From positions 62,001 to 126,000 of the forward strand of contig NZ_VTPY01000004.1 in the NCBI RefSeq assembly GCF_008297955.1: 64,000 nt of DNA, given 5' to 3'. Numbering within the stretch: the stretch's first letter is position 1; every line of letters begins with the position of its first letter. The translations under genes and the position numbers were made by a program. Under the pieces are notes generated by a model. It did not search any database and had not been told where the DNA came from. It was given only the letters and a program-made list of their open reading frames with translations. Positions 23,679 through 47,812 of this stretch are shown here, one piece after another. The DNA is from Billgrantia pellis. Its GTDB lineage: Bacteria; Pseudomonadota; Gammaproteobacteria; Pseudomonadales; Halomonadaceae.

Positions 23679-24308
23679 TCAGGCCTTGTGCCGGACCGGC
23701 ACCGCCCCCCGCTCCAGCCGCAGATACATCAGCGCCGTGGTCACTGCGTCGCCCAACGCCGTGTGGCGTCCCATGATCGGCACGTCGAGCGCCTCGGCAA
23801 CGGCATCGAAGCGCAGCGAGCGCGGCTCGGGCTCCATCATGCTGCGGCGCCGTTGGCGGTGATAGAGCTGAGCCACGTCGATCCCGCTGTTGGGCAGGTC
23901 GAAACCGAAGCGTGGACGGATCTGGCGGTTGAGGATGCTCAATCCGAAATCGAGTCGCCAACCCAACAGCGGTCGGTTGCCGACGAAATCGAGCAGCTTC
24001 GCCAAGGCCTCGTCGAGACACTCCCCATCATCGAGGTCGATGCCGCGCAGACCATGCACGCGAATGGAGTCGCCGGTCAGGGTGGCCGGTCGCTTGAGAC
24101 GCAGGCTCAACGATTCGCTGGTCAGTACGCGATCGCCGCGAACCTTGACCGCGCCGATCGATACGGGCTCCGCCGTACGCGCGTCGAGTCTGGTCGTCTC
24201 GCAGTCGATGGACACCAGCTCATCACCGGTATAGGGATGAAAGAGCCAGCCATATTCGCCATTGGCATGGCGACGCCGGTCATGGGCCCGGCGCAGGGCG
24301 CGAAACAT
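23679..24308 (-). CDS. DnaQ-like 3'-5' exonuclease
   Basis: A 209-residue DEDDh exonuclease of the DnaQ superfamily. Exo I is SIDCETT (D35, E37), exo II lies in LLGWRLDFGLSILNR, and exo III is GRHTALGDAVTTALM (H and D). It lies 39 bases after a DUF294 protein, with the same orientation. In Pseudomonas and relatives the same pair sits beside the acetate symporter and acs regulators, so the genes may be co-regulated with that locus. Its substrate is unknown; it is not the replicative epsilon subunit (too short, with a different context). Confidence 0.9.
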   Translation of the reverse strand: MFRALRRAHDRRRHANGEYGWLFHPYTGDELVSIDCETTRLDARTAEPVSIGAVKVRGDRVLTSESLSLRLKRPATLTGDSIRVHGLRGIDLDDGECLDEALAKLLDFVGNRPLLGWRLDFGLSILNRQIRPRFGFDLPNSGIDVAQLYHRQRRRSMMEPEPRSLRFDAVAEALDVPIMGRHTALGDAVTTALMYLRLERGAVPVRHKA

Positions 24309-24347: not shown

Positions 24348-26165
24348 TCAGGAGTATTCGAGGTGATAGCGCTGCGACAGACTCTGCTTGAAATCCTTGA
24401 CGATATGCAGCGCTTCACGCAGCAGGTCGCGCTCGAGCGACGACAGCTGCTGCACCACCACGCGATCGGCCCCCTTGCCGGAAGCCTGCCCGAGACGCTC
24501 GAGTTGCTGTTTCAGGCGCAGCTCGGTGAACAGCGACAGCGCTTCGGCCAGGTCTTCGGCGACGCGCTCCTCCAGGCGCCCGTCGGCGGCCAGCATCTCC
24601 AGCCGCTCCAGGGTCGAGGTCGGCTGGATGCGTCGTTCGAGCGCCATGGTGCGCACGCCATGCACGATGGGGAAGATGCCTCCCTTCTTGATGTCGATGC
24701 CGTGCTGCGGCTTCTTCAGCGAGCCGAACAGCGTCAGCGGCGTGGAAAAACGCAGCGCCGTGCGGGCGAAATAGGAAAGCAGGATCTCGTCACGGGAGCA
24801 TTGCTCGAACAGCGCTTCGCGAACCCGCTCGAGAAGCGCGGGATTGCCTGCCACCGCATGCGAATCGAGCATGATGGCCAGCTTCATCAGGCTGTCCCCG
24901 TCGCGGGCCTGGGCCCAGCGGGCAATGCGCTCGCGCCACTGCGAAACGGTACCCACCCATTCGGGATTGGAAACCATGATATTGCCCGGACAAGGCGGGT
25001 AACCCAGTTCGATCAGCGTCTCGGTCAAGTGCCGCATCTGCTCACCGACATCGGGCCACTCAAGCTCGTCAGCCAGTACCAGACCGTTGTCCTGGTCGGT
25101 CTTGAGGATCTGTTCGCCGCGCCCCTCGCTGCCCATCACCATCAGGCAACTGTCACGTTGGTAGCGCTCGTCGATGAGAAATCCCCAGGCCTTGGACATG
25201 ATGCGCCCGTTGAGCGCCGCCAGAAGCCCCATGGCGAAGCGCAGCTTGACGCCTTGGGCCATCAGCGCCTTCACCAGTTCGGGAGTTCGATGGCTGGCGC
25301 GGAACAGGGCATCGAGGCTATCGGCCTGCTCCACCTGCAGGCTGACGACATAGCTGCGGCTGGAGAAGTAGCTAAGCACATCGGTCAACTCGACCACGCC
25401 AATGGGCGTCTCCTGCTCGAGGACCACGACCCGCTCCACCTTGCAGCGGGTCATCGCAACCAACACCTCGAACAGGTACTGGTCGGGCCGCACGGTCACC
25501 AGCTCGAAGTGGGCAATGCTCCGCAGCGGGCTGTCCCGGTCGTGTCCCTCCAGTACCAGTGCATTGAGCAGATCGGTCTTGGTGACCATGCCGGCGCCCC
25601 GCTCGCCTTCGACCAGCAGGCTGTCGGCGTGACTCTCATGCAGCCTGGCCACGGCTTCGGCGATGGTGGTGTGCGATCCCATGTACAGCGGAGGGCGCAT
25701 GCACTCGCTGACTCTCGCCAACATGAAACCGGCCATGGTCACGCCGCCCTCGGCACGCTGCTCGGTCAGTAGCCGCGCCTTGTGCGCCAGGGTCTGGCGA
25801 AAAAACTCGGCGAAGGCCGGATAGTCGTCACAGAGTTGCAGGAACAGCGCCTTGGGCAGCAGATAGCAGAGGCTCTCCTGCTCGGCGCGAAAGCGGTAGC
25901 GGCTCTTGCCGTTGAGAATACTGATGGCGCCGAACAGATCCCCGGCGGTGTAGTGTCCGATTCGCTCCCGGGCGCCCGGCTGGGTGGTATCCAGCTCGGC
26001 CACTTCGCCCTTGTGGATCAGAAAGACATACTCGCCGGGCTGGCCGGTTTCGAGAATGACCTCATCGCGTTCGAAGTAGGCCAGATCGACGCCATGACGA
26101 ATCCGTTCACGCCCCGCCTCGTCGAGCAGGGAGAAAGGCGGTTGTGAAAGATCGACCTCGACCAT
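24348..26165 (-). CDS. cNMP-binding, CBS and DUF294 nucleotidyltransferase-like protein
   Basis: A 605-residue cytosolic protein with a cyclic-nucleotide-binding fold (about 10-130, with GQPGEYVFLIHKGEVAEL), two CBS domains (about 150-280) and a DUF294 nucleotidyltransferase-like domain (about 300-440, with MGSEGRGEQILKTDQDNG carrying the G-S and D-x-D metal residues). The C-terminal helical DUF294_C part follows. Related to GlnD-like transferases. The function is unknown, but it is often encoded next to an acetate symporter and acs regulators. The promoter lies in the shared region 26166-26927. Confidence 0.92.
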   Translation of the reverse strand: MVEVDLSQPPFSLLDEAGRERIRHGVDLAYFERDEVILETGQPGEYVFLIHKGEVAELDTTQPGARERIGHYTAGDLFGAISILNGKSRYRFRAEQESLCYLLPKALFLQLCDDYPAFAEFFRQTLAHKARLLTEQRAEGGVTMAGFMLARVSECMRPPLYMGSHTTIAEAVARLHESHADSLLVEGERGAGMVTKTDLLNALVLEGHDRDSPLRSIAHFELVTVRPDQYLFEVLVAMTRCKVERVVVLEQETPIGVVELTDVLSYFSSRSYVVSLQVEQADSLDALFRASHRTPELVKALMAQGVKLRFAMGLLAALNGRIMSKAWGFLIDERYQRDSCLMVMGSEGRGEQILKTDQDNGLVLADELEWPDVGEQMRHLTETLIELGYPPCPGNIMVSNPEWVGTVSQWRERIARWAQARDGDSLMKLAIMLDSHAVAGNPALLERVREALFEQCSRDEILLSYFARTALRFSTPLTLFGSLKKPQHGIDIKKGGIFPIVHGVRTMALERRIQPTSTLERLEMLAADGRLEERVAEDLAEALSLFTELRLKQQLERLGQASGKGADRVVVQQLSSLERDLLREALHIVKDFKQSLSQRYHLEYS

Positions 26166-26419
26166 GCTGTTGCCCTCGTTGAACGGCCGTTATGAGCCGC
26201 TTGATCGTCGGTTGGCTTAGGCGTACGGCTTCGATGTAGCGCGCTGCCATCTCCAATCGGGCAAGCTGGCGGGAAGCTCCGATGGCGATGCCTGTGCAAG
26301 AAAAACTCTGCCCACATTACCCATGGCTTCGGCACCCGAACGTCACAAGACACCTACGGCGTGCACTTCCAAGGGCACGGTTCAATGCAGCATAACAGGG
26401 CCGACTTTTCGGACATAAC

Positions 26420-26436
26420 CTAGACCAACGTACTAG
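26420..26436 (+). promoter_or_regulatory. Operator-like repeat 1 (TAGAC-N4-GT type)
   Basis: CTAGAC-CAAC-GTACTAG: a left half identical to the perfect site at 26541 and a right half with one inserted base. It is part of the five-site array upstream of the symporter. Confidence 0.5.
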
Positions 26437-26472
26437 GGTTTATTGGGTCCTATGCGACCCGATACCACCATG

Positions 26473-26488
26473 TTAGACAATGGTCGGT
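26473..26488 (+). promoter_or_regulatory. Operator-like repeat 2
   Basis: TTAGAC-AATG-GTCGGT keeps the GAC-N4-GTC core and five of six left-arm bases of the perfect site at 26541. Confidence 0.5.
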
Positions 26489-26513
26489 GAGCCAACGACA
26501 CGGGGCTATTCAC

Positions 26514-26529
26514 CTAGACAAAAGTCCAA
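26514..26529 (+). promoter_or_regulatory. Operator-like repeat 3
   Basis: CTAGAC-AAAA-GTCCAA has a perfect left arm and four of six right-arm bases. Confidence 0.55.
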
Positions 26530-26540
26530 GAAGCCCTGTG

Positions 26541-26556
26541 CTAGACATTCGTCTAG
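26541..26556 (+). promoter_or_regulatory. Operator-like repeat 4, perfect dyad
   Basis: CTAGAC-ATTC-GTCTAG is a perfect 6-bp inverted repeat with 4-base spacer; the clearest member of the array. Confidence 0.65.
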
Positions 26557-26653
26557 CGGTACGTGTCTCGGTATTGAAACAGGCATGAAACACACGCGTA
26601 AGTTTTTGTTTTTTCAAAGGTATCACCAACATCAGTTTATTATAGTGTGCTCA

Positions 26654-26669
26654 TGATACCAAAGTCTGG
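26654..26669 (+). promoter_or_regulatory. Operator-like repeat 5, shared with acs upstream region
   Basis: TGATAC-CAAA-GTCTGG. The 14-base core TGATACCAA-R-GTCT recurs upstream of acs (47213-47226, minus strand) in the same orientation relative to the downstream gene. Confidence 0.6.
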
Positions 26670-26927
26670 GATTTATTTTTTTCCGTTATTGACCAGTATT
26701 GCCCATGAGTCATACCGGTAATCGTAAGTCGATAAGGCGGCTCGACAATCGGCAGTGTGAAATGGTGGGAAGAGCGGCTCGTTCGCAGGGATCAAGACAA
26801 GAAAAGGGCGCGTACCGTGCCGCCGTCGAGACCACCTGATCCGATTCGCTTCGTGTGACCTCCCTGATGAAACTCGACCTCTCTCGGTGCGACTTCCCAA
26901 CCTTAAAAACAAGTGGAGAGCAACACT

Positions 26928-27188
26928 ATGGCAGATGACAAATCCAATGCGACCGCATACTGGAAGGCGAACCTGCGCCTGATTACCGGCTGTCTGATCG
27001 TCTGGGCACTGGTGTCCTACGGGTGCGCCATTATCCTGCGGCCGCTCCTGTCCGGCATTCCCGTCGGAGGTACCGATCTGGGCTTCTGGTTCGCCCAACA
27101 GGGCTCCATCCTGACGTTCATCGGCTTGATCTTCTTCTATGCCTGGAAGATGAATCGGCTCGACAAGCAGTTTGGCCTCGGGGAGTAG
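26928..27188 (+). CDS. Sodium/substrate symporter small subunit (DUF4212)
   Basis: An 86-residue protein with two membrane helices. The motif LGFWFAQQGSI and the C-terminal MNRLDKQFGL match the DUF4212 small subunit that partners VC_2705-type sodium/solute symporters. ATG 26928 follows GGAGAG; upstream in-frame codons have no ribosome site. The symporter starts 5 bases after its stop, so the two are co-translated. It resembles the DUF485 (YjcH) partner of ActP in position, but the sequence fits DUF4212 better. Confidence 0.88.
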   Translation: MADDKSNATAYWKANLRLITGCLIVWALVSYGCAIILRPLLSGIPVGGTDLGFWFAQQGSILTFIGLIFFYAWKMNRLDKQFGLGE

Positions 27189-27193
27189 CCAGC

Positions 27194-28990
27194 ATGAGTC
27201 AGTTTGCCATTAACCTGTTATTCGTGGGCGCCTCCTTTGCCCTCTATATCGGCATCGCGATATGGGCCAAGGCCGGGTCGACCAAGGATTTCTACGTCGC
27301 CGGCGGCGGGGTTCACCCGGTCACCAACGGCATGGCGACCGCGGCCGACTGGATGTCCGCGGCCTCCTTCATCTCCATGGCGGGCCTGCTCGCCTCGGGC
27401 GGCTATGCCAACTCCACTTACCTGATGGGCTGGACCGGCGGCTTCGTCATCCTGGCCATGCTGCTCGCGCCCTACCTGCGCAAGTTCGGCAAGTTCACGG
27501 TGCCGGACTTCATCGGCGACCGCTTCTACAGCAGCACCGCGCGCACCGTGGCGGTCATTTGTCTGATCGTGGCATCCGTCACCTACGTCATCGGTCAGAT
27601 GACCGGGGCCGGCGTGGCGTTCTCGCGCTTCCTCGAAGTGCCCAGCACCGCCGGTATCTGGATCGCCGCTGCCATCGTGTTCCTGTACGCCGTGTTCGGC
27701 GGCATGAAGGGCATCACCTATACCCAGGTGGCGCAATACGTGGTTCTGATCATCGCTTATACCATTCCGGCGATTTTCATCTCGCTGCAGTTGACCAGCA
27801 ATCCGCTGCCGCTGTTCGGCATGTTCAGCACGCATAACGAATCCGGCCTGCCGCTGTTGACCAAGCTCAACGAAGTGCTCAATGAGCTAGGTTTCCGCGA
27901 CTACACCGCCGATGTCGACAACAAGTTGAACATGGTGCTCTTCACCGCCTCGCTGATGGTAGGTACCGCCGGCCTGCCCCACGTCATCATCCGCTTCTTC
28001 ACCGTACCCAAGGTCAAGGATGCCCGTTGGTCGGTGGGCTGGGCGCTGGTGTTCATCGCCATCCTCTACCTGACCGCTCCGGCCGTCGCTTCCATGGCAC
28101 GCCTCAACCTGCTGACCACCATCTATCCGGAAGCCGCCGGCCAGGTGGAGAGCTACGAAGAAGCGATGGATAACGCACTGGTCTACGAAGAGCGCCCGCA
28201 GTGGATTCGCACCTGGGAAGAGACCGGCCTGATCACCTTCGAGGACAAGAACGGCGACGGCCGCATCCAGTCCTATAACGCCGGCAACGAAGACTTCCAG
28301 GCAACGGCAGAGGAACGGGGCTGGGAAGGCGACGAGCTGACCGTCAACAACGACATTCTGGTGCTCGCCAATCCCGAGATCGCCAACCTGCCCGGCTGGG
28401 TAGTGGGTCTGATCGCGGCCGGCGGTATCGCGGCGGCGCTCTCTACCGCAGCCGGCCTGCTGCTGGCGATCTCCTCAGCCATCAGTCATGACCTGATCAA
28501 GAACACCATCAACCCCGGCATCTCCGAGAAAGGGGAAATGCTGGCGGCGCGGATCTCCATGGCCGGCGCCATTCTGTTGGCTACGTATCTCGGCCTGAAT
28601 CCGCCGGGATTCGCCGCACAGGTGGTGGCACTGGCCTTCGGGCTCGCCGGCTCGTCGATCTTCCCGGCACTGATGATGGGTATCTTCTCCACTCGGGTGA
28701 ACAGCACCGGCGCGGTCTGCGGCATGCTCGCGGGTCTCGGCAGCACACTGCTGTACATCTTCACCTACCTGGGCTGGTTCTTCATCCCCGGCACCAATAT
28801 GCTGCCCAACACGCCGGACAACTGGCTGTTCGGTATTTCCCCGCTCTCCTTCGGCATCGTGGGCGCATTGATCAACTTCGCCGTCGGCTTCGCGGTTTCC
28901 AAGGTCACGGCACCGCCGCCCGTGGAGATCCAGGAGCTGGTCGAGAGCGTCCGCTATCCGAGAGGCGCTGGCGCCGCTATCGACCACTAA
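27194..28990 (+). CDS. Sodium:solute symporter, VC_2705 subfamily (probable organic-acid/acetate uptake)
   Basis: A 598-residue SSS-family transporter with about 13 membrane helices. Diagnostic blocks: TKDFYVAGGGVHPVTNGMA, MATAADWMSAASFISMAG, FTVPDFIGDRFY and GGMKGITYTQVAQY. A periplasmic or cytosolic insertion of roughly 90 residues (about 310-400) with an EF-hand-like loop (DKNGDGRIQSY) separates two helices and is characteristic of this subfamily. By family and context it imports a small carboxylate, most likely acetate, with sodium. It lies upstream of a CrbS-like sensor, and acs lies in the same window. Confidence 0.9.
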   Translation: MSQFAINLLFVGASFALYIGIAIWAKAGSTKDFYVAGGGVHPVTNGMATAADWMSAASFISMAGLLASGGYANSTYLMGWTGGFVILAMLLAPYLRKFGKFTVPDFIGDRFYSSTARTVAVICLIVASVTYVIGQMTGAGVAFSRFLEVPSTAGIWIAAAIVFLYAVFGGMKGITYTQVAQYVVLIIAYTIPAIFISLQLTSNPLPLFGMFSTHNESGLPLLTKLNEVLNELGFRDYTADVDNKLNMVLFTASLMVGTAGLPHVIIRFFTVPKVKDARWSVGWALVFIAILYLTAPAVASMARLNLLTTIYPEAAGQVESYEEAMDNALVYEERPQWIRTWEETGLITFEDKNGDGRIQSYNAGNEDFQATAEERGWEGDELTVNNDILVLANPEIANLPGWVVGLIAAGGIAAALSTAAGLLLAISSAISHDLIKNTINPGISEKGEMLAARISMAGAILLATYLGLNPPGFAAQVVALAFGLAGSSIFPALMMGIFSTRVNSTGAVCGMLAGLGSTLLYIFTYLGWFFIPGTNMLPNTPDNWLFGISPLSFGIVGALINFAVGFAVSKVTAPPPVEIQELVESVRYPRGAGAAIDH

Positions 28991-29039
28991 GCCATAATGG
29001 CCCCCCCGACCCGGCGGCTACGGGCCGGGGGCCCACCAG

Positions 29040-29072
29040 ATCGGGCTTCCCATCGGGAAGCCCGATTGCTTT
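29040..29072 (+). terminator. Hairpin after the symporter gene
   Basis: A perfect 12-bp stem, ATCGGGCTTCCC / GGGAAGCCCGAT, with ATC loop, followed by TGCTTT. It probably terminates or attenuates the symporter transcript before the downstream 171-residue gene. Confidence 0.7.
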
Positions 29073-29086
29073 GAGGACGTACCACC

Positions 29087-29602
29087 ATGATATGGCACTT
29101 GCTAGCAGCGCTCTTCGTCGGGCTGGGCGCCGGCGGTCTCGCCCATCTGCTGCGTCTCGCCAGCGGCAGGCGACTACCTCGCTGGATTGTCCCGGTCTGT
29201 GCCGGCCTGGGCATGTTGGGCTACCAGATACATCACGAATACTCGTGGCTCGATTACAAGCGCAGCCAGCTGCCGGCAACGGCTCAAGTCGTCGATGCCG
29301 AGAAGGGACAAATGTTCTGGCGGCCCTGGACCCACCTTTTCCCCATGACGGTTGCCTTCACCGTGGTCGATCACAGCAGCATGGTGCGACGCCAGGCCGA
29401 CGAGCATCAGCTGGTCGAGTTCGTTCTCTACCGCTTCGAGAAGGAGTACGTGGATCGCCTGGACCATCAACCCCATCTGATGAACTGTACGACTCGGGAG
29501 ATGGTGCCGCTGACCGGGGAGGAGCGCCGCCCGAACTTCCAGGCCATGCGCGGAGTGGACGCTTCCTCGCCGCTGTACGAGTCGGTCTGCTCGCTCTGGT
29601 AA
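29087..29602 (+). CDS. Hypothetical membrane protein between symporter and CrbS-like sensor
   Basis: I do not recognise a family. The 171-residue protein starts with a membrane helix (MIWHLLAALFVGLGAGGLAHLL), may have a second (WIVPVCAGLGMLGYQ), then a mostly soluble C-terminal domain of about 110 residues with two cysteines (MNCTTREM and SVCSLW). Its place between the symporter and the sensor, in the same direction, suggests that it acts with one of them, for example as an accessory or sensing subunit. It starts 15 bases after a strong hairpin, so its expression may be lower than the symporter's. Confidence 0.8.
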   Translation: MIWHLLAALFVGLGAGGLAHLLRLASGRRLPRWIVPVCAGLGMLGYQIHHEYSWLDYKRSQLPATAQVVDAEKGQMFWRPWTHLFPMTVAFTVVDHSSMVRRQADEHQLVEFVLYRFEKEYVDRLDHQPHLMNCTTREMVPLTGEERRPNFQAMRGVDASSPLYESVCSLW

Positions 29603-29679
29603 CGTCGCGCCGTCGGCCGCACGTGCCCTTGCGTCACCATACCCTTTAGAATGGTCGGCAATCTTCTGGGGGGAAGCGC

Positions 29680-32600
29680 ATGTTTGCCGGTTGGCTGTTG
29701 ATCGCCGTTTCGCTGCTCTATATTGCCGTGCTGTTCGTCATCGCCTGGCTCGGCGATCGGCGTGCCCGCAAGCACGGTGCCAGCCGCCGGCGCCCGGTCA
29801 TCTATATCCTGGCGCTAGCCATCTACTGCACCTCGTGGAGCTTCTATGGCGCGGTCGGTCAGGCCGCCACCGCCGGCTGGTCGTTCGCCAGCATCTACGT
29901 GGGACCGATCCTCACTTTCCTGCTGTTCTGGCCGATACTGGCCAAGATGATTCGCGTTGCCAAGCGACAGAACATTACGTCGATTGCCGACTTCATCGCC
30001 TCGCGCTACGGCAAGGCGCAGTCGCTGGCCGCCTTTGCCAGCCTGGTGGCCCTGGTCGGCACGCTGCCCTACATCGCCCTGCAGCTGAAGGCCGTCGCCA
30101 CCTCCTTCGCCGTGCTGACGGACGCCGCCGACATCACCCATGCCCCGCTGTTCGCCGACACCGCCTTCTTCGTCGCGGTCGTCATGGCGGCCTTCGCCAT
30201 CTTGTTCGGCACGCGACATACGGATGCCACCGAGCACCACGAGGGCCTGATCCATGCCGTTGCCTTCGAGTCGATAGTCAAGCTGTTCGCCTTCCTGCTG
30301 CTGGGGATCTATGTCACCTGGGGCATGTTCGACGGCCTCGGCGAGCTAATGGCCCTCGCCGACACCCAGCTCGAACTACAGCGCCAGCTAGCCGACCAGG
30401 ACTTTGGCCGAGGTTTCTGGGCCCAGACCCTGCTCGCCATGCTGGCGGTCTTCTGTCTGCCGCGCCAATTCCACGTGGCGGTGGTGGAGAACACTCACCC
30501 GGACGACGCCGCCAAGGCACGCTGGCTGTTCCCGCTTTACCTGGTGGCCTTTGCCTTCTTCATCCTGCCGATCGCCGCCGCCGGCCTATCGCTGTTTCCA
30601 GGTGGTTCGGTCGAGCCCGACACCTTCGTGCTCGCCCTGCCGATGGCGGCCGGCCAGCAATGGCTGACCCTGCTTACCTATATCGGCGGCTTCTCTGCGG
30701 CTACCGGCATGGTGATCGTAGCCACCGTCGCTGTCTCGATCATGATCTCCAACGAAATCGTGATCCCGCTGCTGTTCCGCTTGCGCTGGCTCGATACCCG
30801 GCCACGCGATTATGGACGCCTGGTGCTCCAGGCGCGGCGTATCACCATCGGCGCGATCCTGGCCCTGGCTTACGGTTTCTACCACCTCATTGGCGAATTC
30901 AATTCGCTGGCGTCGATCGGCATGTTGTCGTTTGCCGCAGCGGCCCAGTTCGCCCCCGCCCTGCTCGGCGGACTTTACTGGAAGCGCGGCAACCGGCTCG
31001 GGGTCATCGTGGGCATGAACGCCGGCTTCGCCATCTGGGTCTACAGCCTGTTGATGCCGACGATGATCCAGGGCGGCGTCCTGCCGAGCCACTGGCTCGC
31101 CGGCGGTCCTTTCGATCATCCCTGGCTGACCCCCACGTCGCTGTTCGGGCTCAACTTCGGCGACTCCTTCACCCATGGCGTGATGCTGTCCCTCGGGGTG
31201 AATCTGTTCTGCTACATCTTCGTTTCCCAGATCACCTCGCAGCGGGTGGTGGAGCGCATTCAGGCCTCGCTGTTCGTCGACAGCGTCGAGACCCGCCAGA
31301 CCTCGGTCAACCGACCCTGGACAGGCGCCACCACCGTCGGCGACCTCAAGGTCCTGTGCGAACGCTTCCTCGGTGCCGGCCAAGTGGCCCGCGCCTTCGA
31401 GGACTACGCCCGACGCACGGGCAAACCGCTGGAGGATGGCAACCGCGCTTCCATCGACGTGATCCAGTTCACCGAACGCTTCCTGGCATCGGTGCTGGGC
31501 GCTTCCTCGGCACGTATCGTGGTCAATTCGGCGTTGCAGGGGCGAGGCATCGGCATTTCCGACGTGATCTCCATCGTCGACGAGGCCTCGCAGGTACTGG
31601 AGTTCAACCGCGCCTTGCTGCAGGCCACCATCGAGAACATCAACCAGGGCATCAGCGTGGTCGACCAGAACATGCGACTGGTGGTGTGGAACCAGCGCTA
31701 CCTGGAGCTGTTCCGCTTTCCCGACCACCTGATCCGGGTCGGTGCGCCGATGGACAAGATCTTCCGCTACAACGCCCATAACGGCGAATACGGCCCCGGC
31801 GATCCGGAAGAGCACGTGCAATTGCTGATCGACAATATTCGTGAGGGCCAGCCTCATCGTTACGTGCGCTACCGTCAGGACGGCAGCGTGTTGGAGGTGC
31901 AGGGCAACCCCATGCCGGGCGGCGGCTTCGTTTACACCTACCAGGACATCACCCAGCAGAAGCGCATCGAGGAAGCGCTGATCCGTTCCGAGAACAACAT
32001 CCGCATCTATACCGACAATGTGCCGGCCCTGATCGCCTACTTCGACAAGGAGTGCCGTTACCTCTTCACCAATCGCGCCTATGAGCAGGCCTTCGGCATC
32101 GACCGCAACGAGGTGATCGGCAAGCACATCGACAGTGTGATCAGCGACGACATGGCGCGTGAGCGCGTGCCATGGATACATCGCGCCCTGGCCGGCGAGC
32201 GGGTTAACTTCGAGGTCTCGATGCGCATTGCCGACGACCTGCGCTACATGTTGGTGACCTATACGCCGCACTTCGGCGACAGTGGCGCGATACTCGGCTT
32301 CTTCGCTCTCTATCAGGACATCACCGAGCGGCGCCTGGCAGAGATCGCGCTGAAGGAAACCAACGAAACCCTGGAAGAGCGGGTACGCGAGCGGACCCAG
32401 GCGCTTTCCGAGGCCAACAGCGCCCTGCGACAGGAGAACCGCGTTCGGGCCGAGGCCGAGCAGGCCCTGCGGCAGGCCAAGCAAGTGGCCGAGGATGCCA
32501 ATGCTTCGAAGACGCGCTTTCTTGCCGCCGCCAGCCACGACCTGCTGCAGCCGCTCAATGCCGCACGCCTGTTCACCTCGGCGCTGTCCCAGGAGATGGA

Positions 32601-33633
32601 CGCCGGCGACATGAAGCGCACCATTGGCCATATCGACAACTCGCTGCAGGCCGCCGAGGAGCTGCTCGGTACCCTGCTCGACATCTCCAAGCTCGACGCC
32701 GGCGCCCTCACCCCGCGGCGCAGCCATTTCCCCCTGGCGGATATCTTCCGCCCGCTGCGCGCTGAATTCGAGGTCATGGCCGAGGATCGCGGCCTCGACC
32801 TGGTGGTCGTGCCCACCCGGCTCTGGGTCGACAGCGACCCCCAGATGCTGCGCCGAATCATTCAGAACTTTCTGTCCAACGCGATTCGCTACACCCAGGA
32901 GGGTCAAGTGCTGCTGGGCTCTCGACGCCGCGGGGAGCGACTCACCATCGAGGTGTGGGATAGCGGCCCCGGCATCCCCGAATCCAAGCAGACCGAGATA
33001 TTCCAGGAATTCCGCCGCCTCGATCAGGTGTCACGACACAAGGAGAGCGAAAAGGGGCTGGGGCTGGGATTATCGATCGCCGACCGCATGAGCCGGGTGC
33101 TCGACCACCCGATCACGGTGCGCTCGCGGGAAGGTCACGGCACCATGTTTTCCGTCAGCGTTCCTGTCGTCACCTCTCGCAGCGAGGCCGAACGCGCCGA
33201 GGAGGATGTGACGCCGCGCCGTGCCGGCAACAAGCTGGCCGGCGCCCGCATCCTGTGCATCGACAACGAGACGCTGATCCTGGAAGGCATGAAGGCAATG
33301 CTCTCCGGCTGGGGCTGCGAGGTCTATACGGCGACCAGCATCGGCGGCGCCAAATCGGTGCTGCGCAACCTGGACGGCGAACCGGACGCGATACTGGCCG
33401 ACTATCATCTCGACAACGAGGTCACCGGTCTAATGGCGCTGGAGGCCTTGGGGGAGCGACTCGAGAGCGCCGTGCCGGGCATCGTGATCACCGCCGACCG
33501 CACCGAGGAGGTCGCGGAAAAGGTACGACGCAGCGGCTATCAGTTGCTGCAGAAGCCGGTCCGCCCCGCCGCCTTGCGCGCTCTGCTGACGCGTACGCTA
33601 CAAGCCAGCCGTGCCACACGGCAGGAAAGCTGA
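29680..33633 (+). CDS. crbS: CrbS-like hybrid sensor kinase with SSS transporter domain
   Basis: A 1317-residue sensor. Domains: an N-terminal SSS (sodium/solute symporter) module with about 13 helices (1-510), a STAC-like linker (about 520-630), two PAS domains (about 640-770 and 775-890), a coiled coil, then a histidine kinase with H-box AASHDLLQPLNA (H953), N-box NFLSNAIRYT, G1 DSGPGIP and G2 GLGLGLSI, and a C-terminal receiver with acceptor D1241 (ILADYHLD). It matches the CrbS type, which controls acs and acetate uptake with CrbR in Pseudomonas and Vibrio. Placing it next to a sodium symporter and an orphan LuxR-type regulator supports the call. The gene name is by similarity only. Confidence 0.88.
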   Translation: MFAGWLLIAVSLLYIAVLFVIAWLGDRRARKHGASRRRPVIYILALAIYCTSWSFYGAVGQAATAGWSFASIYVGPILTFLLFWPILAKMIRVAKRQNITSIADFIASRYGKAQSLAAFASLVALVGTLPYIALQLKAVATSFAVLTDAADITHAPLFADTAFFVAVVMAAFAILFGTRHTDATEHHEGLIHAVAFESIVKLFAFLLLGIYVTWGMFDGLGELMALADTQLELQRQLADQDFGRGFWAQTLLAMLAVFCLPRQFHVAVVENTHPDDAAKARWLFPLYLVAFAFFILPIAAAGLSLFPGGSVEPDTFVLALPMAAGQQWLTLLTYIGGFSAATGMVIVATVAVSIMISNEIVIPLLFRLRWLDTRPRDYGRLVLQARRITIGAILALAYGFYHLIGEFNSLASIGMLSFAAAAQFAPALLGGLYWKRGNRLGVIVGMNAGFAIWVYSLLMPTMIQGGVLPSHWLAGGPFDHPWLTPTSLFGLNFGDSFTHGVMLSLGVNLFCYIFVSQITSQRVVERIQASLFVDSVETRQTSVNRPWTGATTVGDLKVLCERFLGAGQVARAFEDYARRTGKPLEDGNRASIDVIQFTERFLASVLGASSARIVVNSALQGRGIGISDVISIVDEASQVLEFNRALLQATIENINQGISVVDQNMRLVVWNQRYLELFRFPDHLIRVGAPMDKIFRYNAHNGEYGPGDPEEHVQLLIDNIREGQPHRYVRYRQDGSVLEVQGNPMPGGGFVYTYQDITQQKRIEEALIRSENNIRIYTDNVPALIAYFDKECRYLFTNRAYEQAFGIDRNEVIGKHIDSVISDDMARERVPWIHRALAGERVNFEVSMRIADDLRYMLVTYTPHFGDSGAILGFFALYQDITERRLAEIALKETNETLEERVRERTQALSEANSALRQENRVRAEAEQALRQAKQVAEDANASKTRFLAAASHDLLQPLNAARLFTSALSQEMDAGDMKRTIGHIDNSLQAAEELLGTLLDISKLDAGALTPRRSHFPLADIFRPLRAEFEVMAEDRGLDLVVVPTRLWVDSDPQMLRRIIQNFLSNAIRYTQEGQVLLGSRRRGERLTIEVWDSGPGIPESKQTEIFQEFRRLDQVSRHKESEKGLGLGLSIADRMSRVLDHPITVRSREGHGTMFSVSVPVVTSRSEAERAEEDVTPRRAGNKLAGARILCIDNETLILEGMKAMLSGWGCEVYTATSIGGAKSVLRNLDGEPDAILADYHLDNEVTGLMALEALGERLESAVPGIVITADRTEEVAEKVRRSGYQLLQKPVRPAALRALLTRTLQASRATRQES

Positions 33634-33723: not shown

Positions 33724-34386
33724 TCAGGATTCCACCTTGGGCGGCTCGACCTCGAGCTTCTGTGCCGCGATGACCGCCTGGGTACGGGAATGCACGCCCA
33801 ACTTGCGCAGAATGGCGGTCACGTGGGCCTTGATGGTGGCCTCGGAGACGTTCAGCTCGTAGGCGATCTGCTTGTTGAGCAGGCCCTCGGTGAGCATGTT
33901 GAGCACACGGAACTGCTGCGGCGTTAGCGAGGCGATGGCCTCGGCAAACCGCGCCTCCTCCTCGCTGCCATCACCCAGCGCGTCGGCCAGTTCCTGCGGT
34001 AGCCATACCTCGCCGTCGAGAATCTCGCCCACCGCTTCGGCGATCAGCGCCAGCGACGAGGATTTGGGAATGAAGCCCGAGGCCCCGTAATCGATCGCGC
34101 GACGCACGACGTGAGGCTCGTCGCTGCCCGATACCACGGCCACCGGGATGTCGGGTGTCTGGCCACGCAATTGAATCAGGCCGGAGAAGCCATGGGCGCC
34201 TGGCATGTGAAGGTCGAGAAGAATCAGGTCGGCATCCGGATGGCGCGTCACCACCTCGCAGGTCGCCTCCATGGTATCGGCTTCCACGATCTCGGCCTGC
34301 GGCGCCAGCTGGCGCAGCGCTTGCGTCAGCGCCGCGCGGAACAGCGGATGGTCATCGGCAACGATGAATTTCTGGGCAAAGGCCAT
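33724..34386 (-). CDS. crbR: CrbR-like LuxR-family response regulator
   Basis: A 220-residue regulator: receiver domain (1-125, phosphoacceptor D58 in LILLDLHMPG, switch lysine in GFIPKSS) and LuxR-type HTH (LTPQQFRVLNMLTEGLLNKQ, with KAHVTAILRKLG). The ATG at 34386 with an upstream GAGGAGA was chosen; a longer frame to 34491 adds 35 residues without domain similarity. It is convergent with crbS, its likely kinase. The inverted-repeat array upstream of the symporter is a candidate binding site. Confidence 0.9.
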   Translation of the reverse strand: MAFAQKFIVADDHPLFRAALTQALRQLAPQAEIVEADTMEATCEVVTRHPDADLILLDLHMPGAHGFSGLIQLRGQTPDIPVAVVSGSDEPHVVRRAIDYGASGFIPKSSSLALIAEAVGEILDGEVWLPQELADALGDGSEEEARFAEAIASLTPQQFRVLNMLTEGLLNKQIAYELNVSEATIKAHVTAILRKLGVHSRTQAVIAAQKLEVEPPKVES

Positions 34387-34736: not shown

Positions 34737-35024
34737 ATGGCACAGCGTAACCAGAACCCCGGTAATTTCGCCAACGATCCGAAGAAAGCTTCCGAGGCCG
34801 GTCGCAAGGGTGGCCAGCACAGCGGAGGCAACTTCGCCAACGATCCGCAGAAGGCCTCCGAGGCCGGGCGCAAGGGTGGCCAGCACAGTGGCGGCAACTT
34901 CGCCAACGATCCGCAGAAGGCTTCACAAGCCGGTCAGAAAGGCGGTCAACACAGCGGCGGCAACTTCGCTAATGATCGTCAAAAAGCTTCCGAGGCCGGG
35001 CGCAAGGGTGGCAAGAACAGTTAG
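34737..35024 (+). CDS. KGG-repeat stress protein (GsiB/YciG-like)
   Basis: A 95-residue hydrophilic, probably disordered protein of four tandem 22-residue repeats (unit close to GNFANDPQKASEAGRKGGQH). Such KGG-domain proteins are induced by osmotic, general or stationary-phase stress and resemble the plant LEA group 1 repeat. The DNA repeats with a 66-base period, so unit number may vary between strains. It starts after AAGGAGA and is followed by a hairpin terminator and a YciF-like gene, the same neighbours as YciG-YciF in enterics. Confidence 0.93.
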   Translation: MAQRNQNPGNFANDPKKASEAGRKGGQHSGGNFANDPQKASEAGRKGGQHSGGNFANDPQKASQAGQKGGQHSGGNFANDRQKASEAGRKGGKNS

Positions 35025-45144: not shown

Positions 45145-47094
<1,950 letters not shown>

Positions 47095-47210
47095 TGAATA
47101 GCCTCTTCCAGGAGATGCGCCCTCTCGGTGGTTGTCACCGGCTGCTTGTTCTTGATTGCGCCGGTACCAGATCTGCCTTCCAGCATATACCGCCTGGACA
47201 CGCCTTCCTC

Positions 47211-47226
47211 TTAGACCTTGGTATCA
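47211..47226 (-). promoter_or_regulatory. Operator-like site upstream of acs
   Basis: On the minus strand TGATAC-CAAG-GTCTAA. It shares the 14-base core TGATACCAA-R-GTCT with the site at 26654-26667. A -10-like TATATG lies downstream (47184-47189, minus), putting the site centre near -42 from the expected start. Confidence 0.6.
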
Positions 47227-47248: not shown

Positions 47249-47812
47249 CTAGTTGTAACGACTTTCGGGATCAACAAAAGACTGATAGACCAAGGTCTGA
47301 GCGCACGTCAGACAGCGATAGCGGCGCCCCCTGCGGGCGAGCGCATGGCGCCGGGCGGTGAAGTAGTGATCCTGGCAGCCGCAATGATAGCGATAGGGCA
47401 TGGGGCTGGCCCGACGCGTGTCGAACGCGTGCGTAACCCGCGGCGGCAGGCCAAACAGGCGCTCCATCACGGTACGCCATTCGTGGCCATGGGGTCGCGC
47501 CCGGCGCCCGTCGCGCAGATGCCTTACCAGCCAATGAGCCATCTCGTGGGGCACCACCTCGACCAGGTAGGCGTGCCGGTTCTCGCGGTACAGCACCGGA
47601 TTGAAGCGCAGTCCACCGCGGCCATAATGCGCCTGGCCGGCGCACTTGCCGCGCAGGTCGCACCAGACCTTGGGCCTGGGCAGGGCGGGGTGATACTTGC
47701 GGCACAGCTGCCAGGCGGCCTCCACGCGGTCCAGCAGGGTCCGTTTCAGCGCCGCGTCGTCGAGGCTTGCCAGCCACTCGGGGCAAGGTTCGGGAAGTGC
47801 AGGTTGTCTCAT
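47249..47812 (-). CDS. sprT: SprT-family zinc metalloprotease-like protein
   Basis: A 187-residue cytosolic protein of the SprT (DUF45-like) family. It carries the catalytic H89-E-x2-H93 motif in VVPHEMAHWL, a possible third ligand (HGHEW) and a C-terminal zinc-ribbon (HCGCQDHYF and CLTCAQ). In eukaryotes the related SPRTN removes DNA-protein crosslinks; the bacterial function is uncertain. Confidence 0.92.
   Translation of the reverse strand: MRQPALPEPCPEWLASLDDAALKRTLLDRVEAAWQLCRKYHPALPRPKVWCDLRGKCAGQAHYGRGGLRFNPVLYRENRHAYLVEVVPHEMAHWLVRHLRDGRRARPHGHEWRTVMERLFGLPPRVTHAFDTRRASPMPYRYHCGCQDHYFTARRHALARRGRRYRCLTCAQTLVYQSFVDPESRYN

Follow-up and report, generated by a model that had tools for sequence, protein, structure and literature searches.

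Genes and features of the locus

The window, that is, the whole 64-kb stretch of DNA analysed here, contains two divergently oriented transcription units separated by a set of short inverted repeats (Table 1). On the plus strand, a DUF4212 small subunit and a VC_2705-family sodium/solute symporter are followed by a CrbS-like hybrid histidine kinase, beyond which a NarL-family response regulator lies in the opposite orientation. The divergent gene encodes a protein with the domain set described for Pflu5625 of Pseudomonas fluorescens (PMC5715377). The acetate--CoA ligase gene acs is located 20 kb away.

The response regulator combines a receiver with a LuxR-type DNA-binding domain and adjoins the CrbS-like kinase, as expected of a CrbR-type protein. 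Its closest solved structure by sequence is NarL, and its best NCBIfam model is ErdR, at 268 bits and thus under the cut-off of 390, so that we refer to it only as CrbR/ErdR-like. The N-terminal part of the kinase matches a solved chain named 'histidine kinase' (10ed_A, 1.5e-73), and Pfam returned no SSF domain for it, the mark of CrbS being an SLC5 symporter domain fused to a hybrid kinase (SLC5-STAC). A scan of 28900-29750, between the symporter and the crbS-like gene, matched no terminator or promoter, making it likely that DUF4212, symporter and crbS form one operon; the crbS-like gene is thus probably part of the symporter operon. A 171-aa frame in this interval (29087-29602, plus strand) matches nothing in Pfam or NCBIfam at E 0.001. 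On the other side, an exonuclease-type gene (RNase_T, 23679-24308, minus strand) directly 3' of the DUF294 gene probably shares the divergent operon with it. A small protein encoded at 34737-35024 (plus strand) consists almost entirely of KGG (stress-induced acidophilic) repeats, four stretches of which are recognised by Pfam.

Table 1. Coordinates of genes and regulatory features in the window.
Feature	Position	Strand	Sequence or basis
Divergent gene: cNMP-binding, CBS, DUF294, DUF294_C protein	24348..26165	-	Pfam
Putative -10 of the DUF294/CBS/cNMP gene	26389..26394	-	TATGCT, extended TGTTATGCT; conserved gap to ACTU-like site
ACTU-like site, promoter-proximal to the divergent gene	26420..26435	+	CTAGACCAACGTACTA; ends GTA, not GTC
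Accessory ACTU-like array site	26473..26488	+	TTAGACAATGGTCGGT
Accessory ACTU-like array site	26514..26529	+	CTAGACAAAAGTCCAA
Distal ACTU-like site of the symporter promoter	26541..26556	+	CTAGACATTCGTCTAG; perfect 16-bp dyad
IHF-like element between the outer ACTU sites	26599..26611	+	TAAGTTTTTGTTT; at -55 from proximal site
ACTU-like site, promoter-proximal to the DUF4212-symporter operon	26654..26669	+	TGATACCAAAGTCTGG; starts GATAC, not TAGAC
Tentative -10 of the symporter operon	26697..26702	+	TATTGC; conserved YATT block 43 columns after proximal-site start
DUF4212 small subunit, sodium/solute symporter	26928..27188	+	PF13937, TIGR03647
VC_2705-family sodium/solute symporter	27194..28990	+	TIGR03648, 820 bits (cut-off 321)
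CrbS-like hybrid histidine kinase	29680..33633	+	PAS, HisKA, HATPase, REC (Pfam)
CrbR/ErdR-like NarL-family response regulator	33724..34386	-	Response_reg, GerE (Pfam)
acs, acetate--CoA ligase	45145..47094	-	TIGR02188, above cut-off
Tentative -10 of acs	47182..47187	-	TATGCT; ATATGCT block, partly conserved in anchored columns, 24 acs loci
ACTU site, promoter-proximal to acs	47211..47226	-	TGATACCAAGGTCTAA
Second ACTU-like acs site, within 3' end of sprT frame	47285..47300	-	TCAGACCTTGGTCTAT

A five-site array between divergent promoters

An earlier note on this DNA had reported five repeats, at 26420, 26473, 26514, 26541 and 26654, and all of them are present at these positions. Their description as TAGAC-N4-GTC-type fits three of the five exactly, the 26420 and 26654 sites being variants, and the site at 26541 is indeed the perfect dyad it was said to be. 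The window contains two copies, and no more, of the core TGATACCAARGTCT that was reported as shared with acs. They are at 26654 (plus strand) and 47213-47226 (minus strand), each oriented towards its own gene. Two further points needed amendment: the array does lie upstream of the symporter operon, but it is placed between two divergent promoters, with its leftmost site promoter-proximal to the DUF294/CBS/cNMP gene, and the matching copy upstream of acs is accompanied by a second site that the earlier note had overlooked.

The exact TAGAC-N4-GTC pattern is found at four distinct places in the 64 kb (26474, 26515, 26542 on both strands, and 47286), and all of them fall inside the array or the acs upstream region, which together make up 1.6% of the window. 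This confinement places the sites beyond chance. Some of the counts would fit random matches: with up to one mismatch, the window-wide number is unremarkable (37 against 29 expected, reached by 11 of 100 shuffles), and genomic copies of the perfect dyad with up to one mismatch are rarer than those of the reversed control (28 against 106 per strand). A chance origin is nevertheless ruled out, since both the sites and their spacing are conserved across the family, as described below, and we regard its probability as negligible.

Conservation and spacing in related genomes

Sequence shows the sites themselves, how they are spaced and conserved, and where they stand with respect to conserved -10-like blocks. 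In a comparison of the same promoters, proposed earlier as a check, the symporter-proximal site and the acs site are each present in 24 of 24 same-genus loci. Of 25 same-genus genomes (own included), 24 have the DUF4212 gene, the remaining genome being 85% complete, and all 24 DUF4212 loci carry TGATAC[CG]AAAGT[CA]. More broadly, the symporter-proximal site occurs in 78 of 80 named loci. The 24 same-genus intergenic regions hold 92 ACTU-like sites, compared with a mean of 0.69 and a maximum of 4 in 200 first-order Markov simulations, a count for which the criteria were fixed post hoc and the relatives are not independent; its patterns, like those of the class-wide, spacing, first IHF-element and -10 counts, were written after part of the data had been seen.

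The outer geometry is more constant than the array positions, which differ from relative to relative; one locus (L012) has a site at the equivalent place to that at 26473. The perfect dyad lies 113 bp above the symporter-proximal site, and an array site 113-116 bp above the proximal site is present in 44 of 64 family loci, a count that omits two genera (g16 and g18, 8 loci), 7 of whose 8 loci have a different, TACTACTAATGTCGGG-like proximal form. The start codon, by contrast with the array site, lies anywhere from 128 to 415 bp from the proximal site in 59 loci, selected with a tighter proximal pattern that misses 13 of 72 proximal sites.

Across 117 distinct loci (those sharing the same 300-base upstream end counted once, and two named loci that lack a proximal site dropped), the interval 60-300 bp above the proximal site holds no site in 5 loci, one in 44, two in 27, three in 26, four in 14 and five in 1. 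Consecutive gaps (n=125) measure 27 bp in 36 cases and 28 bp in 16, 52 together, and 55-57 bp in 24; the gap from the 26514 site to the next is 27 bp, the most frequent in the family. Both the number of array sites and this register suggest cooperative loading. Tandem duplication is not favoured as the origin of the array, as the spacers between 27-bp neighbours look unrelated (25 examined).

Promoter and terminator scans of the island gave no match, so the promoter calls rest on conservation. On the symporter side, TATTGC has a weak consensus. On the divergent side, the distance between the leftmost site and the -10 is kept across relatives: of the 117 distinct Halomonadaceae loci, 85 have an ACTU-like site accompanied by TG[CT]TANN[CT]T, a pattern widened after a narrower version had matched 6 of 53 new loci. 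The gap is 25 nt in 70 loci and 24 nt in 15, the latter mostly Vreelandella. At other gaps, the searched stretch of the 117 loci contained no extended -10, and the control direction gave 1 match. The extended -10 is absent from 32 of the 117 loci, including all 8 distinct Salinicola-type loci.

Upstream of acs, the proximal site starts 124-165 bp before the gene match in the 24 same-genus loci, and 18 of the 24 carry the second site, 74-76 bp above the proximal one.

The repeat belongs to the ACTU class of operators

The earlier note had proposed that the repeat is the operator of the CrbR-like regulator and joins acetate uptake and activation in one regulon. Membership in the CrbR operator class is supported by sequence, and the acs and symporter promoters share the motif throughout the genus, but the motif itself had already been published as ACTU. 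In P. fluorescens, ACTU is an inverted repeat needed for CrbR-dependent acs activation (Sepulveda and Lupas, PMC5715377) and has been reported in CrbS/CrbR regulon promoters, with tabulated sites such as CTAGACTTACGTCCAAT (Pflu5625, a demonstrated CrbS/R regulon member) and TAATACTAAGGTCGTCT (Pflu1813, with actP) (PMC5715377).

A matrix built from six published P. fluorescens sites (four regulon genes and two predictions, none from the window) ranks the acs site, at 47210-47226, highest of all window positions on both strands, as does a matrix of the four regulon sites alone. Among the best 25 positions, six fall in the array or acs regions with the six-site matrix, array sites included (binomial p ~2e-6), and four with the four-site matrix (p ~6e-4). 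The repeat thus matches ACTU and is present at the promoters of acs, of an acetate-type symporter and of a Pflu5625-type gene, all target types of the published regulon.

The KAC-N4-GTC repeat and its targets (acs, an acetate-type symporter operon and a cNMP/CBS/nucleotidyltransferase gene) are the same in both organisms, and the P. fluorescens repeat adjoins the -35 of acs, at -52 to -36 (PMC5715377), a geometry close to that of the divergent promoter here. For ACTU the -10 is expected roughly 23 nt from the repeat; at the divergent promoter it would lie a tightly conserved 24-25 nt after the 16-base site, and the acs and symporter -10 calls are weaker. In contrast, the accessible text of that study describes one motif per promoter, and neither an array, an IHF site, Halomonas nor a divergent island (PMC5715377). 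The symporters also differ, that of P. fluorescens being ActP with a DUF485 partner (PMC5715377) and that of the window being of the VC_2705/DUF4212 type.

The sign of regulation by the CrbR-like protein is not certain. In the published material on Pseudomonas aeruginosa, most tested ErdR-bound genes rose on erdR deletion while the symporter operon gene fell (PMC9927353), and in Pseudomonas putida one acs promoter without the motif was not bound (PMC8402216). Simple activation should therefore not be taken for granted.

Specificity in the genome, the family and the class

The perfect dyad does not mark a regulon genome-wide. The genome-wide search suggested by the earlier note failed to single out acetate genes: the 4.35-Mb genome has five copies, and the four outside the array adjoin unrelated operons, namely SBD_N/NBD_C and DctP genes, a GntR-UTRA and TctC pair, a DHDPS gene, and a dioxygenase and LysR gene. 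Use of the dyad as a regulon marker was accordingly rejected. Perfect TAGAC-N4-GTCTA dyads upstream of the GntR-UTRA gene and near the dioxygenase gene (L002 and L005, both at 1501-1514) are possibly operators of other regulators. Degenerate patterns gave 22 matches in the own genome against 10 for the reversed control, and a second pattern 10 against 0; the surroundings of 16 such loci revealed no convincing further regulon member. A one-mismatch ACTU-like site, TCGACCATGGTTCAA, precedes a citrate synthase gene (L225) by about 270 bp, between it and genes that by eye resemble succinate dehydrogenase, and is a weak candidate regulon member.

That the perfect dyad also precedes a GntR gene, and stands close to three further operons of unrelated function, would agree with a division of labour in which only the promoter-proximal sites are CrbR operators, while the middle TAGAC-N4-GTCTA dyads serve another regulator of the same genes, for example one of the GntR type. 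We consider this improbable: the middle sites are variants of the proximal repeat and resemble the Pflu5625 site, the spacing register ties them to the proximal ones, and the upper acs site is of the same form.

Within the family, the exact pattern TGATACSAAAGTMTG is found in 52 of 121 genomes (control 0), a figure slightly overstated by five matches in genus g20, two of which (L082 and L083) were inspected and lie, by eye, inside a LysR-type coding frame. All 121 family genomes have the regulator and 102 of them the DUF4212 gene, compared with 9 (regulator, over threshold) and 45 (DUF4212) of 185 genomes class-wide. Strict family-type sites were absent upstream of DUF4212 from both strands of 29 class loci (0 against 1.85 expected), which suggests that the array is a trait of the Halomonadaceae. 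Scored with the matrix from P. fluorescens, 4 class loci from genomes with the regulator exceed 20 from genomes without it (one-sided p 0.008), although two of these 4 have low values (5.0 and 4.2); this comparison covers 24 loci, 5 of the 29 having been dropped as truncated, and two more genomes with both genes lie outside the set.

An IHF-like element at a fixed position

Between the outer sites of the 24 same-genus loci, one more conserved block lies at about -55 from the proximal site. It resembles the consensus of IHF, taken here as YAANNNNTTGATW, from which the element in the window differs by one base. Summed over the 24 loci, the best IHF score reaches 191, whereas simulations averaged 166 and did not exceed 174. 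In the 59 loci defined by the tighter proximal pattern, [CT]AAN4[CT]TG[AT][AT] occurs 21 times at -55, five times at -56 and once at -57, against 9 times over the other 92 offsets.

The element goes together with the outer spacing. The strict pattern is found in 30 of the 44 loci with 113-116 spacing and in 0 of the 20 without, and a looser pattern in 38 of 44 and 6 of 20. Among new named loci, the strict element is present in 14 of the 20 that show the spacing and in 3 of the 33 that lack it (16 and 4 for the looser pattern). Here 54 of 80 named loci were new, 53 of them with a proximal site; the distal and IHF criteria were preset, the proximal pattern was widened slightly, and genera are shared with the earlier loci. 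The groups with and without the element largely track genera, and the IHF counts are therefore not independent. Vreelandella has a site ~99-112 bp above the proximal one, without an IHF-like element. As judged from sequence, an IHF-like pattern lies between distal and proximal regulator sites.

The sites could still be CrbR operators while the -55 block is bound by a different protein or is simply an A/T-rich part of the promoter, with the 113-116 spacing kept through shared descent. The intervals are indeed A/T-rich, 6 of the 24 same-genus best IHF scores are matched by over half of the shuffles, and genera that have the element fall largely into other clades than genera that lack it. Against this, the strict pattern concentrates at -55 to -57 (27 of 36 occurrences over 95 offsets), the summed score exceeds the shuffle maximum, and the same loci show free variation in start-codon distance. 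On balance we find this explanation rather unlikely and favour an IHF-type site.

Proposed mechanism and comparison with known systems

We consider it likely that 26389-26702 forms a bidirectional control island for CrbR, which would also act at acs, with accessory loading, an IHF bend and feedback. In this model, for which we infer CrbR binding, IHF binding, cooperativity and feedback, phosphorylated CrbR would bind the ACTU sites adjoining the -35 of both divergent promoters (26420-26435 and 26654-26669), as well as that beside the -35 of acs, 20 kb away, and would activate all three promoters, helped by IHF bending. The accessory sites, many of them spaced in a register of 27-28 bp, would load additional CrbR dimers, and an IHF-type bend at -55 would bring the site ~114 bp above the symporter-proximal site to the promoter. 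Since crbS is probably within the activated operon, activation would feed back positively. Operator copies that keep constant distances to a likely DNA-bending site suggest that a single regulator probably switches the uptake and activation of acetate together with the signalling gene. A stronger version we offer only tentatively: that CrbR governs uptake in Halomonadaceae through an enhancer-like, IHF-folded array lying between the divergent promoters, with dimers in a 27-28 bp register, giving a cooperative, self-reinforcing switch tuned by the number of sites (0-5).

The layout corresponds to that of csrB and partly to that of narG in Escherichia coli, and we propose the same mechanism for CrbR. 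According to the available descriptions, csrB is likewise controlled by a NarL/FixJ-family regulator, UvrY, with an upstream inverted repeat, a second site near -35 and IHF between, but the regulator and repeat are different, the upstream repeat is single and the arrangement is not bidirectional (PMC4682653). The narG promoter shares upstream NarL regions, IHF bending and a proposed oligomerisation of NarL along the DNA, whereas its promoter-proximal activator is FNR and its sites are NarL heptamers rather than ACTU (PMC4549865). The RpuS/RpuR pyruvate system of Sinorhizobium fredii has a related sensor type that controls a monocarboxylate symporter through a promoter repeat, which is an imperfect direct repeat and not an inverted one (PMC9100948).

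The ACTU operator, the CrbS/CrbR regulon and IHF-aided NarL-family promoters are thus known. The combination of array, divergent island and IHF was not found in the open-licence literature on ACTU/CrbR/ErdR, Halomonas acetate systems or CrbR with IHF, and the array layout seems new and previously undescribed. The findings extend the CrbS/CrbR acetate regulon to Halomonadaceae, and a little-understood nucleotidyltransferase signalling gene shares its operator island with an acetate-type symporter. If the mechanism is true, acetate use would be a cooperative, self-reinforcing switch whose sharpness is set by the number of array sites. Halomonas strains are in industrial use. The family also provides a natural promoter series, in which the operator number varies at near-constant outer geometry, thus allowing a direct test of whether the cooperativity of a NarL-family switch is determined by how many operators it has.

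Finally, four loci from two genera carry an extra ACTU-like dyad at about -153 (L136, L145) or -126 (L163, L165) from the DUF4212 match start. Its place is in the presumed leader, ~88 bp further downstream than the proximal site, and it may be a negative-feedback site.
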